Shown here piece by piece: positions 16,901 to 48,309 of a DNA stretch of 64,000 nt. Source of the DNA: a virus. The stretch's first letter is position 1. The number at the start of each line of letters is the position of its first letter. A model generated the notes under the pieces. The model had not been told where the DNA came from and searched no databases. It was given only the letters and a program-made list of their open reading frames with translations. The position numbers and the translations under genes are program-made. The stretch spans positions 16,170-80,169 of IMG/VR virus record IMGVR_UViG_3300042446_001440. One strand, given 5' to 3'.

Positions 16901-17154
16901 GTTATATAGTTAAGTTTATATTAGTAATGTTTGTTACGATAGTAGCAGATGTTTGTTGGACCTACTATTTTCTAAATGTAGAAGAACGCAAGCCGATGGC
17001 TGCAGGTATTTGGTCAGCACTTATTATAGTAGCGAGTGCTTTTATAACAACTAGCTATGTAGCAGATAGATCATTAGTACCAGCAGCAGTTCTAGGAGCA
17101 TTTATAGGAACTGCAGGTACAGTATATTATAAAAAGAAAAAAGAAAATAAATGA
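16897..17154 (+). CDS. Small membrane protein (85 aa)
   Basis: Three hydrophobic stretches (about 4-26, 36-55 and 62-77) followed by a basic KKKKENK tail indicate an inner-membrane protein. It overlaps both neighbours by 4 nt and so is co-translated with queE. No role in the deazaguanine pathway can be read from the sequence. Confidence 0.55.
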   Translation: MSYIVKFILVMFVTIVADVCWTYYFLNVEERKPMAAGIWSALIIVASAFITTSYVADRSLVPAAVLGAFIGTAGTVYYKKKKENK

Positions 17155-18053
17155 GTAAAATAGAATCAAATAAGCTACTAATCAGTAGCGACTTCTATTC
17201 CGTCCAAGGAGAAGGAATAAGCAGTGGAATACCATCGTACTTCGTTCGTTTAGGATTATGTAATCTAACTTGCGGTATGTCTAGACCATTCACTAATAAC
17301 CTATTAAAGGAAGCAGCATTAGCTGATGGTGAAATATTCAAAGGTGATTTAGAATTAGAAGGTAAAGCAACTTGGACTTGTGATAGTACATCTCAGTGGT
17401 TATGGAGAGGTGAAAATAAAGATTTCCAATACCTAATTGATCAATGGAAAGAACAAGGTATATATGATGATATTTTAAATGGTAATATCCATATCATTTG
17501 GACAGGTGGTGAACCAACAATTAAAGGACATCAAGTAGCTATTGCCGGTTTTATTAAATATTGGGCTAATTATGTAGAAGATAATAAAGAAGGAGATACA
17601 GAAGTTCATACATTTGATCGTGAAACAAATATGCATTCTATTCATTACAAACCAGTAAATTCATTTCATGAGATAGAAACAAATGGTACAAACTATATTG
17701 AAGAATATTTATTCGGTAAACTAAATCAAATCAACTGTTCACCTAAGTTATCCAATTCAGGTATGACAGCTAAACAACGTATTAATCCAGAAGCGATTAA
17801 ACGTATAATGGAACATAAAAATTATCAATTTAAGTTTGTTGTTAGTATAGAGGACGACATTCAAGAAATCTTTAGAGACTTTATTGAGCCGTTTAATATT
17901 CCATTGAAAAATATAATTATAATGCCTGGAATGGATAGTAGAGATGATTTTCATGAAAGAACGCAGTTTAGCTTAGAAATGGCTAAAAAGTATAAGATTA
18001 GAGGTATGACCAGATTACATTTAAGTGCGTGGGATAAAACCTTGAACGTCTAA
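17151..18053 (+). CDS. queE: 7-carboxy-7-deazaguanine synthase (QueE, radical SAM)
   Basis: FYSVQGEGISSGIPSYFVRL and HIIWTGGEP are QueE hallmarks. The iron-sulfur cysteines are split: C37 and C41 in GLCNLTCGM, but the third is C77 in TWTCDSTS, giving CX3C-X35-C instead of CX3CX2C, with a ~33-residue insertion between them. Related insertions occur in other QueE proteins. The enzyme rearranges carboxytetrahydropterin to carboxydeazaguanine for QueC. At 300 aa it is longer than the usual 200-240. It ends its operon and is followed by a structured RNA and terminator. Confidence 0.85.
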   Translation: MSKIESNKLLISSDFYSVQGEGISSGIPSYFVRLGLCNLTCGMSRPFTNNLLKEAALADGEIFKGDLELEGKATWTCDSTSQWLWRGENKDFQYLIDQWKEQGIYDDILNGNIHIIWTGGEPTIKGHQVAIAGFIKYWANYVEDNKEGDTEVHTFDRETNMHSIHYKPVNSFHEIETNGTNYIEEYLFGKLNQINCSPKLSNSGMTAKQRINPEAIKRIMEHKNYQFKFVVSIEDDIQEIFRDFIEPFNIPLKNIIIMPGMDSRDDFHERTQFSLEMAKKYKIRGMTRLHLSAWDKTLNV

Positions 18054-27384: not shown

Positions 27385-29016
27385 ATGAGTAAAATAATCA
27401 GTTTCGACCGCGAAGCAAAACAAAGGCTTCAAGCAGGTATCGACAAAGTAAACAAAGCAGTATCCGTTACAATGGGTCCCTTCGGACGTAACGTATTAAT
27501 TGAAAAAGAACATGGCCAAGTAGCATCCACTAAAGATGGAGTTACCGTTTCAAGAACCATTACATTGGAAGATCCAATTGAAAACATGGCGGCTACAGTA
27601 ATTAAACAAGCAGCAGAGAAAACAGTAAGTGCAGCAGGTGATGGAACAACAACATCAACCGTATTAGCTCATTCAATCGCTTCACAAGCTCTAGATGCTA
27701 CATCATACCCATCAACAAACGCAACTCAAGTAAAGCGTGGTATCGAACAAGCAGTTAAAGTAGTAGTAGCGGAATTAAAGAAAATGTCTCGCCCTATCGA
27801 AAGCGAAGATCAAATTAAACAAATCGCTACATTATCAGCTAATGGTGATGCTGAAATAGGTGAATTAGTAGCTACAGCATTAGATAAAGTAGGAAGAGAC
27901 GGAGTCGTTACAGTAGAGGAATCGCGTACTGGGGAAACTAGTTTAGAAGTAGTAGAAGGTATGCAGTTTGATAGAGGTTACAAGTCACACTACATGGTAA
28001 CAGACAACAACACAATGTCTGCTAACCTAGTAGATGCATTAGTATTACTAGTGGATGGTAGAATTTCAGCAGTGAAAGATCTATTACCGATTTTAGAATC
28101 AGTATCTAATGATAATAAATCATTATTGATTATAGCTGAAGATATTGATGGTGAAGCACTAGCAACATTGATTGTAAATAAGATGAGAGGTATTTTGAAG
28201 GTAGCGGCTGTTAAAGCACCTGACTTTGGAGAACGTCGCTTATTAATCTTAGAAGACATTGCAACCATCACAGGTGGAACAGTAGTATCACCTCAAAAGG
28301 GAATGAAATTAGATAAATTCAATAAAACCTGGTTTGGATCTGCACGTACAATTACTGTAGGTAAGGATACAACTACAATTATTGATGGTAAAGGAGATAC
28401 AACAGCAATCGAAACACGTGTATTAGAATTAAAAGCACAAATCGACAAATCAAGTTCACCATATGAAATTGAGAAACTACAAGAGCGCCTAGCTAAAATG
28501 ATTGGTGGAGTAGCTATTATCAATGTAGGAGGAGGAACGGATATTGAGATGAAGGAAAAGAAAGATCGCCTTGATGATGCTCTACAAGCAACACAAGCAG
28601 CATTAGATGAAGGTATATTACCTGGAGCTGGAGTAGCATTATTGAATGCTAGAAAAGCACTTAAAGCAGATCTAGATGGTAAAAATGATATATCTAAAGG
28701 AGTAGCAATAGTGTTTGCAGCTTGTGGAAAACCATTTAAACAAATTCTAGAAAACGCAGGTGAAGATGCTAGTGAATGGTTAATGTCCTTAAACATACAT
28801 AGCGAAAACCTAGATCTAGTACCTGATATTGCAAAAGGAGCAGCAGTAGATGCCTTCGAAGCAGGAATCATTGATCCTACTAAAGTAGTAAGATCAGCAT
28901 TAGAGAATGCAGCTGCAGCAGCAGTAACATTACTGATGACAGAATGTGTAATCCATGATAAACCTGATACTAAGAAAAAGGTAGAAGACTTTGGGATGGC
29001 AGAGATGGGAATGTAA
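27385..29016 (+). CDS. groEL: Chaperonin GroEL
   Basis: The 543-residue protein is full length, with [34 protein letters not shown] (ATPase loop), GFGERR-type ADFGERR and [23 protein letters not shown] motifs. The usual Gly-Gly-Met tail is shortened to MAEMGM. Phages usually supply only a cochaperonin, so a complete GroEL/ES pair is notable. It likely folds capsid or other large phage proteins and frees the phage from host chaperone supply. Acquisition from a bacterial host is probable. Confidence 0.95.
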
Positions 29017-45270: not shown

Positions 45271-45873
45271 ATGCCTGCTGCAAAACCTTTAACTAAGTTT
45301 CAAATAGAAACAGCAATGCGCTACACTAAATCAGTGAGAGCAGCCGCTAAGTATTTAGGATGTTCCTATCATCACCTTAAGCCTTTTATGAAGGTACTTA
45401 GAGTAGATGATTCAGATCCTAATTCACCAACTTTATTTGATGCTCATAAAAATCAAAACGGTAAAGGCATTCCTAAGTTCTTACCTAACAAACGTAAAGA
45501 ACCAAATGTTAAAAATATTATCTTAACAGGTACAGGATGGGAATCATTTACACCTGATAAAATAAAAGTAAGACTAGTAGCTGAGGGTTATTTAAGAGAT
45601 GAATGTTATGTTTGTGGATTTAGTGAACGTAGAGTAACAGACTTTAAAATTCCATTACTCCTACATTTTAAAGATAATAATAAATGTAATTATCTACTTG
45701 ATAATCTAGAGCAAACATGCTATAATTGCTATTATTTATACGTTGGAGAGGTATTAACACCAAGCCAAATACGCAGTGTAGAAGATTCATCACCACCATT
45801 AGCAAAACCATTTGAATGGGACTTAGATGATGAACAAATAGCAAATATGAAGGCATTAGGAATTTTTGAATAA
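45271..45873 (+). CDS. HNH-like zinc protein with N-terminal helix-turn-helix (200 aa)
   Basis: TKSVRAAAKYLGCSYHHLKPFMKVL is a helix-turn-helix. The C-terminal ECYVCGFSERR...LLLHFKDNNKCNYLLDNLEQTCYNCYYL has the two CxxC pairs and the N residue of HNH nucleases. The expected HH/DH catalytic pair is LHFKDN, so only one His remains. It could be a degenerate homing endonuclease or a DNA-binding regulator. It starts at the end of the terminator. Confidence 0.6.
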   Translation: MPAAKPLTKFQIETAMRYTKSVRAAAKYLGCSYHHLKPFMKVLRVDDSDPNSPTLFDAHKNQNGKGIPKFLPNKRKEPNVKNIILTGTGWESFTPDKIKVRLVAEGYLRDECYVCGFSERRVTDFKIPLLLHFKDNNKCNYLLDNLEQTCYNCYYLYVGEVLTPSQIRSVEDSSPPLAKPFEWDLDDEQIANMKALGIFE

Positions 45874-46634: not shown

Positions 46635-46707
46635 TCCAGAATAGCTCAGTTGGTAGAGCAGCTGATTTGTAATCAGCAGGTCGCAAGTTCGACTCTTGTT
46701 TCTGGAT
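46635..46707 (+). tRNA. tRNA-Thr (TGT)
   Basis: The full cloverleaf is visible: acceptor TCCAGAA/TTCTGGA, D-arm AGCTCAGTTGGTAGAGCA, anticodon stem GCTGA/TCAGC with loop TTTGTAA (anticodon TGT) and T-arm GCAAG-TTCGACT-CTTGT. CCA is not encoded. Confidence 0.93.
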
Positions 46708-46708
46708 C

Positions 46709-46809
46709 AAGGATGAGAGAATACAAAGTAGCAGCACCCGTCATCATGTGTAACTCGTGGTGCCAACTACCAGTAACTTTGTTTGGTTGGCCAACCGAAC
46801 CTCATCTTT
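46709..46809 (+). ncRNA. Unassigned structured RNA between tRNA-Thr and tRNA-Ser
   Basis: AAGGATGAG (46709-46717) closes with CTCATCTTT (46801-46809). Inside, ACAAAGT (46723) pairs with ACTTTGT (46776), GTAG with CTAC, and GCACC (46734) with GGTGC (46759), giving one long arm. A GGTT/AACC hairpin follows. The closing stem and two-arm layout recall a tRNA, but no anticodon or T-loop consensus is present. Confidence 0.5.
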
Positions 46810-46812
46810 ATT

Positions 46813-46899
46813 GGAAGAGTAGCCAAGCGGTTGACGGCACCTGACTTGAAATCAGACATACGGGAAACTGTATCGTGGGTTCGAATCCTACCTCTTCCG
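46813..46899 (+). tRNA. tRNA-Ser (TGA)
   Basis: It has acceptor GGAAGAG/CTCTTCC, D-arm AGCCAAGCGGTTGACGGC, anticodon loop CTTGAAA (TGA), a class II variable arm (ATACGGGAAACTGTAT) and T-loop TTCGAAT. CCA is not encoded. Confidence 0.95.
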
Positions 46900-46904
46900 C
46901 AGCT

Positions 46905-46975
46905 TGGGTTATGGTGTAATGGCAACACTACAGATTTTGATTCTGTCGTTTTAGGTTCGAGTCCTGGTAACCCAA
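46905..46975 (+). tRNA. tRNA-Gln (TTG)
   Basis: It has acceptor TGGGTTA/TAACCCA, anticodon stem ACAGA/TCTGT with loop TTTTGAT (TTG), and T-arm TTAGG-TTCGAGT-CCTGG. It is compact and complete. Confidence 0.95.
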
Positions 46976-46979
46976 CAAA

Positions 46980-47111
46980 AAGAACTAGCAAACAAATGAC
47001 ACGCACGGCAGCCTGGAATGTGTGCACACTGAACAGGCAATGCGAACGAAGAGGATGGGATACCTCACTGTGCGTAGGTTAGATTCAACGCCCGTCGCTA
47101 GTTCTTTTTTT
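46980..47111 (+). ncRNA. Structured RNA closed by a 10-bp stem and ending in a T-tract
   Basis: AAGAACTAGC (46980-46989) pairs perfectly with GCTAGTTCTT (47097-47106), followed directly by a T7 tract as in an intrinsic terminator. Inside are GCCTG/CAGGC enclosing a GTGTGCACAC palindrome, GAGG/CCTC, and GCGT/ACGC around AGGTTAGATTCA. It is not a recognised tRNA. It could be a discrete small RNA with its own terminator. Confidence 0.55.
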
Positions 47112-47115
47112 ACAT

Positions 47116-47275
47116 TGTAGGATGGTGAAATGCTCTAGAGCTTGGAATACACAGCGCCCCGTCTAGGCGCCGCGGATCACGAAATAGATAAATGATAATG
47201 GGTTGACCACACGCTTGCAAGCACAAATGTCATTTATTGAATCGCCGTATGGAGGTTCAAATCCTTCTCCTACAG
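47116..47275 (+). ncRNA. Oversized tRNA-like RNA (about 160 nt)
   Basis: The acceptor TGTAGGA pairs with TCCTACA, and a perfect T-arm, GGAGG-TTCAAAT-CCTTC, precedes the 3' strand. A GTG/CAC D-stem has a GCTCTAGAGC hairpin inserted in its loop, and GCGCC-CCGTCTA-GGCGC could be a 7-nt anticodon-like loop. About 80 further nt, including a TAAATGA/TCATTTA stem, replace the variable loop. It is not a normal tRNA and may be an interrupted or repurposed one. Confidence 0.5.
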
Positions 47276-47277
47276 CT

Positions 47278-47424
47278 AAAGAGGATAAAATGTGTAGTAA
47301 CCTCAAGGAAGCTAGCTCCTACTACACTCTTTAAGTGTTACCCAAAGGGTAAACGCACTGGTATGAGACTTGTTCTCTCAAACTCGATACCTAAAGTTGA
47401 GCTGTCAATTGAAAGATTGACTTA
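47278..47424 (+). ncRNA. String of perfect hairpins before tRNA-Leu
   Basis: AAAGAG/CTCTTT encloses GTGTAGTA/TACTACAC and AGGA/TCCT. Then come TTACCC-AAA-GGGTAA, TGAGA-CTTGTTC-TCTCA within GGTAT/ATACC, and GTCAAT-TGAAAG-ATTGAC. Every stem is perfect, so the stretch is under structural constraint. No protein start or tRNA is visible. Confidence 0.5.
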
Positions 47425-47426
47425 AT

Positions 47427-47512
47427 GCCCCGGTGGTGGAACTGGTAGACACGCAGGACTTAAAATCCTGTTCGCTGTAAGGCGAGTGACGGTTCGATTC
47501 CGTTCTAGGGCA
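47427..47512 (+). tRNA. tRNA-Leu (TAA)
   Basis: It is class II. Acceptor GCCCCGG/CTAGGGC has one C-A mismatch. D-arm GTGGAACTGGTAGACAC, anticodon stem CAGGA/TCCTG with loop CTTAAAA (TAA), variable arm TCGCTGTAAGGCGA and T-loop TTCGATT complete the molecule. Confidence 0.94.
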
Positions 47513-47525
47513 CATAATTATAATC

Positions 47526-47843
47526 ATGGCATGTCATTGTTTACATCTGAAAAACGCAAGCGAATTCTACACGTTACTTAAACAACGTGACCCCGATTTA
47601 ATCAAGAAAATGGTTAAATGTGTAATGAGCGCATATAAGCGAAATAAAGCAGATATTGATATATTTGATATCACATTCAAAGACATGAGCGAATTGACAT
47701 TTAATATTGAAAGATCACAGTACAGCGAATTACTCAGCAATTGTCTTAAAGACATGATTGAAATAGAAGAGTACGAATTATGTGCTGAGATTAAGAAAAT
47801 AATAGATAAAAAATCAAAACACGGGGATGGCATAGGCATTTGA
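47526..47843 (+). CDS. Hypothetical protein with UVR-like C-terminus (105 aa)
   Basis: It has an N-terminal MACHCLHLKNASEFYTLL and a C-terminal EIEEYELCAEIKKIIDKK UVR-like motif resembling the end of the protein at 44308-44625. The last seven codons overlap the 5' strand of the tmRNA, so either the gene ends inside the tmRNA transcript or the two are processed apart. The function is unknown. Confidence 0.55.
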   Translation: MACHCLHLKNASEFYTLLKQRDPDLIKKMVKCVMSAYKRNKADIDIFDITFKDMSELTFNIERSQYSELLSNCLKDMIEIEEYELCAEIKKIIDKKSKHGDGIGI

Positions 47844-48292
47844 TCCGTATGAGATGGGTATGTATACACGCAGAGACATGGCATTCATTCTCTTTAATCA
47901 TGATGCAAACAATTTAAACGACAACAAAATCGCTCGTCAAGAAATCGGTGCTTCTATTATCAACATGGCTTTTGCTAGAGTTGCTATGGCTGCCTAAGAT
48001 CTTCGGATCTTTCTTTCCCTGGCAACTTGGGTGAAACAGTAAGTTGCAAAAAATTCCACTTTGGGGAGTAGGGTGTTCATCTACCCGACGCCCACCAGGT
48101 TGGGGATGTACGACCATAACACGTCCGTGGAGCTGATGAAAATGTTTTTCTAGTTATGTCAAAACTAGATGGTGGACTGTTACCAAATCGGTAGCCCTAA
48201 CATACGGTGCAGTAGCAATACAGTACTAAGCGTGTGAGAAGCTGTACATATTTGTACTTACGGAGACGAGGGTTCGAACCCCTCCATCTCCA
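47823..48292 (+). ncRNA. ssrA: Transfer-messenger RNA (tmRNA)
   Basis: 5' GGGGATG (47823) pairs with 3' CATCTCC (48285-48291, one G-U), followed by discriminator A. The T-arm is GAGGG-TTCGAAC-CCCTC. P2 forms from CCGTA/TACGG (47845/48259), TATGTA/TACATA (47859/48245) and ACACGC/GCGTGT (47866/48230). A tag frame with probable resume codon GCA at 47905 runs ANNLNDNKIA... to ...RVAMAA and a TAA at 47995. A hairpin AAGATC-TTCG-GATCTT sits at the stop codon, then a pseudoknot with CCC/GGG and GCAACTT/AAGTTGC. It rescues stalled ribosomes with SmpB, which is not seen here. The exact resume codon is uncertain. Confidence 0.85.
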
Positions 48293-48309
48293 CTCATCTC
48301 CCCCTGTTC

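Follow-up and report, generated by a model that had tools for sequence, protein, structure and literature searches.

The window analysed here is a 64,000-nucleotide stretch of an 80,169-base IMG/VR virus record, an incomplete contig of a T4-like phage whose record carries T4-like replication genes for PolB, a UvsX-like recombinase, a clamp loader and a DnaB-like helicase. A cluster of phage tRNA genes is followed directly by a tmRNA gene with a long tag reading frame, and a gene for a ClpP-family serine peptidase lies about 4 kb upstream of the tmRNA on the same strand (Table 1). Elsewhere the window contains a GroEL-like chaperonin gene (27385-29016; phrog_5725, E 2e-149) and a preQ0 set of QueE-like, QueC, PTPS and GTP cyclohydrolase I genes (17151-18053 and other ORFs), which suggests 7-deazaguanine DNA modification. 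Matches of the HNH, GIY-YIG and NUMOD3 homing-endonuclease type occur among the window proteins at 45271-45873 and elsewhere, with one HNH match in the tRNA/tmRNA region. A 105-aa ORF (47526-47843) overlaps the 5′ end of the tmRNA by 21 nt, an arrangement also seen at locus L158; maturation of the tmRNA at its 5′ end would cut off the stop codon of the ORF, giving a non-stop message. Such overlap was set aside as a general non-stop mechanism, since it occurs in any form in only 5 of 96 long-tag loci.

Table 1. Features of the tmRNA locus and its neighbours (window coordinates).
Feature	Position	Strand	Details and evidence
ClpP-family serine peptidase gene, 179 aa	43431..43970	+	PF00574, E 4e-25; possible functional partner
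Four phage tRNA genes (Thr, Ser, Gln, Leu)	46635..47513	+	Directly upstream of tmRNA; ARAGORN, Rfam
One-piece tmRNA (ssrA) gene	47823..48292	+	RF00023, 61.9 bits; covariation
Acceptor stem, 5′ strand GGGGATG	47823..47829	+	Pairs with 48285-48291; carries the G3-U70 alanine identity pair
P2 outer helix, 5′ strand	47844..47849	+	Partner 48259-48264; double changes in 5/6 pairs
P2 inner helix, 5′ strand ACACGC	47866..47871	+	Partner 48230-48235; covariation alignment
Pseudoknot PK1	47873..47906	+	S1 47873-47876/47889-47892; S2 47881-47884/47903-47906
Tag reading frame	47920..47997	+	Resume codon GAC; 25 codons (47920-47994), DNKIARQEIGASIINMAFARVAMAA; stop TAA 47995-47997
UUCG-capped hairpin directly 3′ of tag stop codon	47998..48009	+	Sequence; compensated in part of type A relatives
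Pseudoknot PK2 (H-type)	48017..48047	+	S1 48017-48019/48029-48031; S2 48022-48028/48041-48047; double changes in 6/10 pairs
T-arm, 5 bp and 7-nt loop	48268..48284	+	Double changes in 4/5 pairs
Acceptor stem, 3′ strand CATCTCC	48285..48291	+	Sequence; covariation in relatives
Discriminator A of tmRNA	48292	+	3′ CCA absent from encoded gene

An Rfam cmscan of the whole window placed RF00023 at 47823-48295 on the plus strand over the full model length (61.9 bits against a gathering score of 47; E 9.3e-22). A sequence-only reading of this DNA had proposed a one-piece tmRNA here and named a covariance model and ARAGORN as checks; the covariance model and the covariation described below bear the proposal out, and ARAGORN did not call the gene at 47823-48292, though it does call tmRNA genes with tags of the same kind in relatives. 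Across 23 long-tag relatives, ARAGORN reported the long tag in 12, missed the gene in 6 and shortened the tag in 5 more, so that surveys based on this program likely undercount the long-tag group. The shortened tags were those of L048, L050, L051 and L160, at 8 residues each, and of L266; automated annotation would hide such tags.

All the structural elements of a tmRNA are present: a paired tRNA-like domain with its G3-U70 pair, a long P2 helix and PK1 upstream of the tag, and a further pseudoknot downstream. In an alignment of 13 homologous tmRNAs sharing the tag type of the window, the two P2 helices, the T-arm and PK1 were paired in 98.1% of cells, with double-sided changes in 15 of 25 pairs; none of 500 shuffles scored as high, and sliding the partner strand left pairing at only 30-57%. 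PK2 was paired in 99.2% of cells, again with no shuffle of 500 reaching its score. The acceptor stem takes many different but matching sequences, with compensating changes, across 93 unique long-tag tmRNAs, and its third pair is G-U in 91 of these, G3-U70 being the established identity element for alanine. The acceptor pairing, T-arm, P2 helix and at least one H-type pseudoknot that had been noticed from the letters were thus all recovered, PK1 as well as PK2 being H-type with compensatory changes, and the hairpin noticed at the stop codon is there in the sequence. Compensatory change in homologues, which the same reading had named as the test that might overturn it, keeps both the P2 and the acceptor pairings. 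That the locus encodes a tmRNA is practically certain. A pseudogene or chance tmRNA-like sequence, to which the missing ARAGORN call might point, has been refuted by the RF00023 match, the covariation of the helices and PK2 and the conservation of tag codons described below, and its probability is close to nil.

The tag frame has a resume codon, a stop and a hydrophobic Ala-Ala end. In the window, UUUAAAC is followed by GAC AAC AAA; the same UUUAAAC context occurs in Flavobacteriaceae tmRNAs, where it precedes GGC GAA AAU AAC UAC GCU UUA GCU GCU UAA, encoding the 9-residue tag GENNYALAA. The distance from gene start to resume codon is about 94-97 in these host-type tmRNAs and 91-97 in most long-tag relatives called by ARAGORN, with L266 (106) as the exception, and unaided ARAGORN calls in close relatives gave DNKIARQEEGARIINMAFANVALAA in L047 and DNKKSRQEIGASIINMAFANVAVAA in L260. 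On the basis of this context, this distance and these calls, we take GAC 47920 as the resume codon, which gives an encoded tag of 25 residues, DNKIARQEIGASIINMAFARVAMAA, in addition to the alanine brought by the tmRNA itself. The tag is indeed unusually long, as first proposed (25 residues against 9 in Flavobacteriaceae), but the proposed length of about 30 is corrected to 25 by the resume codon. The frame upstream of GAC 47920 stays open past PK1, and a tag of about 30 residues from GCA 47905-47907 was rejected because that codon overlaps the 3′ strand of PK1 and the UUUAAAC context points to GAC 47920.

This common resume context, together with PolB relationships, makes a Bacteroidota host likely, as the sequence-only reading had hinted. 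Among GTDB genomes, the closest PolB proteins come from contigs of two Flavobacteriaceae MAGs (39-43% identity) and of another MAG (44%), and a Bacteroidetes MAG gave a weaker match. The nearest isolate by PolB, Microcystis phage Mel-JY01 (35%), has no tmRNA.

A PolB search yielded 38 related phage loci, and 12 of their records have an RF00023 match above the cut-off; the match in L055 falls just under it, and L002, found via a structural-region protein, adds a further match. All related records matching RF00023 have long tags. A pattern taken from the 3′ part of the relatives' tmRNAs was then scanned over viral contigs and matched at least 120 of them, and tag lengths among the matches listed were bimodal, with ordinary tags of 8-16 residues, long tags of 22-31 residues and none between. 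Well over 100 tmRNAs on viral contigs carry tags of 22-31 residues, which fall into several peptide families: type A, the family of the window (DNK..RQE.GA.IINMAFAN..VAMAA), type B (DVELSTMTFEDAMAFVGADYAVAA), type C (AKTQSERVAEGEAILASIFGEVAVAA) and type E (GNTNFWSLVNAGVSTPVTEELLAA), with several single long tags outside these. Type C looks related to type A, both having R..EG.AI...F followed by VA.AA. Almost every family retains the AxAA degron at the C-terminus, and sister tmRNAs have tags ending in ADYALAA or NEYALAA, near the GENNYALAA of the probable host.

Degenerate peptide patterns for these families matched 18 viral contigs for type A, 29 for type C and at least 120 for type B. Every one of the 18 type A matches has a tmRNA-type tag at its end, and acceptor and T-arm framing is intact around 14; type C matches behave likewise, some being left unframed by the parser. 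Of the 120 type B matches listed, intact tmRNA framing surrounds 101, another 16 fall close to the end of a contig, and 3 are tag-like without the T-arm pattern. No type A match, and none of the type B matches listed, looks like part of an ordinary protein. A somewhat tighter pattern for type B, the commonest family, had no match in 84,980 cellular species genomes and, as a control, was detected in 38 of the loci collected here. A tblastn search of the tag peptides against isolate phages gave no match, but this negative carries no weight, since the search also misses the Bxz1 tag, which is present in the ET08, Sebata and Alice genomes of the very collection searched. The window tmRNA is a member of a previously unrecognised group in aquatic viruses, with a conserved tag two to three times the length of that of the probable host.

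Within the tag core, dN/dS in frame was 0.25 for type A (16 unique sequences), 0.08 for type C (18) and 0.21 for type B (45), and it exceeded 1 in both shifted frames of all three types (lowest 1.06). The third codon position was the most variable (permutation p 0.008 for type A and 5e-5 for types B and C). Purifying selection in frame and variation at third positions together indicate that the extension is translated and that its peptide sequence matters, and the 25-codon tag of the window is very probably translated. On the contrary reading, translation would restart at an Ala or Gly codon inside the frame, close to its stop, to give a short tag (for example ANEYALAA), and the upstream frame would be an RNA spacer. 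This view could draw on the four 8-residue ARAGORN tags; it is highly unlikely, because the codons further upstream show protein-like evolution in types A, B and C alike, GAC matches the host resume codon in distance and UAAAC context, and ARAGORN itself finds the long tag in 12 of the 23 relatives.

The tag also behaves as an exchangeable module between otherwise similar tmRNAs. The tmRNA of L175, with a type C tag, is 87% identical to those of L169 and L053, with type B tags, before the tag and 83% identical after it, and only 49% identical within it; L148 and L181, and likewise L158 and L141, have a common 5′ part and tags of different families. Translation of the extension, purifying selection and cassette exchange therefore argue for a function at the level of the peptide. 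The extension gave no match to solved protein structures, and the idea that it forms an amphipathic helix was dropped when its hydrophobic moment proved not to exceed that of shuffles. The families differ strongly from one another, and a single common binding partner is not obvious.

With moderate confidence, we favour a reading in which the phage tmRNA works by trans-translation with host SmpB and its tag combines a host-like degron with a selected extension that tunes the choice of protease or adaptor. The RNA would act in the infected cell as a one-piece molecule in ordinary trans-translation with host factors: host AlaRS would charge it with alanine through G3-U70, and host SmpB and EF-Tu would bring it to stalled ribosomes. 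SmpB was not found in the record of the window or in 14 relatives, so the SmpB of the host would have to serve. Stalled chains would then gain an alanine and the 25-residue tag, in which the C-terminal AMAA end would act as a host-like degron of the ssrA type. Ahead of this degron, from the resume codon on, runs an N-terminal extension of some 15 residues. It may serve as an additional recognition element, steering tagged chains to one particular AAA+ protease or adaptor in the infected cell or hastening their breakdown, a role proposed by analogy with the extended Mycoplasma tag and Lon; the phage records contain no Lon.

The ClpP-family gene offers another route, in which degradation would be run by the phage and the extension read by the phage peptidase, with host ClpX or a phage unfoldase or adaptor, as an orthogonal pair. 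The gene is present in 9 of 10 related records and occupies the same place in 7 related phages, and its product retains the active-site Ser and His, with Glu at the acid position. In PHROGs, the top-ranking families for this protein are head maturation proteases, which weighs against such a role; the relatives, however, have an S77 prohead protease as well, which leaves no obvious need for the ClpP-like protein in head maturation, and we set aside its assignment as prohead protease. Outside the lineage of the window phage, a ClpP-family gene is found at that place in none of the 32 long-tag tmRNA loci whose upstream sequence extends for 5.5 kb or more, which excludes the adjacency as a general rule for long-tag tmRNAs and leads us to treat it as a lead. 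The record G036, in addition, has the ClpP gene and no tmRNA above the cut-off, and no phage ClpX was found among the 41 window proteins scanned, the records being fragments. The position of the gene remains suggestive of a functional link to the tag, and this phage-run scheme appears improbable as a whole.

Similarly doubtful is the possibility that rescue itself is what matters, with a non-proteolytic role for the tag in solubility, ribosome release, membrane or chaperone targeting, or as a regulatory peptide. The phage GroEL-like chaperonin and tRNAs would fit a general support of translation and folding, and the tag extensions are diverse; against this, the retention of the AxAA end by almost every family argues that tagged chains remain destined for degradation, as in the favoured reading of a tuned degron. 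A broader proposal, unlikely though not negligible, is that these phages run a trans-translation branch of their own, with a swappable, phage-specified degron cassette addressing a protease or adaptor of the phage's choosing, possibly the phage ClpP. If so, chains that stall during infection would be handled by the phage, bypassing the usual route of the host.

One long phage tag was known before this work. Phage tmRNAs as such are already known (PMC4131195, PMC9004378, PMC11915505), with 402 tmRNA-bearing phages and 133 unique forms in one survey (PMC9004378) and 79 phage sequences, with 10 aa given as the commonest tag length, in another (PMC11915505). In the literature searched, whose coverage was partial, we found no description of a family of long, conserved and exchangeable phage tags. 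Phage tmRNAs have so far been listed and hardly explained; a large set of such tags means that the peptide has an importance of its own to these viruses, over and above ribosome release, and the question of why a phage carries a tmRNA at all becomes directly testable. Should the extensions choose the protease or adaptor, they would also form a ready natural set of degrons for Bacteroidota.

Among known systems, the OM43 phage Melnitz, Bacillus phage G, crAss-like and Lak phages resemble the window in encoding a tmRNA, and they differ in having short tags in phage G (AKLNITNNELQVA), Lak-B2 (about 10 aa) and Kehishuvirus (about 8 aa) and a permuted form in Melnitz, whose tmRNA is two-piece (PMC9004378), and in crAss-like phages. 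The model for permuted tmRNA, RF04321, has matches in Chryseobacterium phage MA9V-3 and the crAss-like cr114_1, cr10_1, cr125_1 and cr50_1 (L252-L256), with the score of cr125_1 falling just under the cut-off, which is unexpected because their hosts have a one-piece tmRNA. The mycobacteriophage Bxz1 group, represented here by the genomes of ET08, Sebata and Alice, shares with the window a phage tmRNA with a 25-residue tag, ATDTDATVTDAEIEAFFAEEAAALV, and differs in host phylum, in phage and in a tag of other sequence ending in ALV rather than AA; with its own tag and its T4-like PolB phage, the window does not belong to the Bxz1 type.

The ssrA tags of Mycoplasma and Mesoplasma, of about 27 aa, have a polar start and a hydrophobic middle and occur in cells that lack ClpXP. 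The 25 codons of the window reach the length of this extended type (about 25 residues or more) and share its polar start and hydrophobic middle; the Mycoplasma and Mesoplasma gene is cellular and its tag sequence is different. For the M. florum ssrA tag, a different length and degradation by Lon are mentioned in a passage of one article that cites Gur and Sauer 2008 (PMC8138137). The nearest known form is the Flavobacteriaceae ssrA, which the window resembles in its acceptor stem, T-arm, P2, PK1, UUUAAAC-G context, resume distance and AxAA end. It departs from that form in having a tag of 25 rather than 9 codons, Asp instead of Gly at the resume position, variable insertions between PK2 and the 3′ P2 strand, and a phage without smpB as its bearer.
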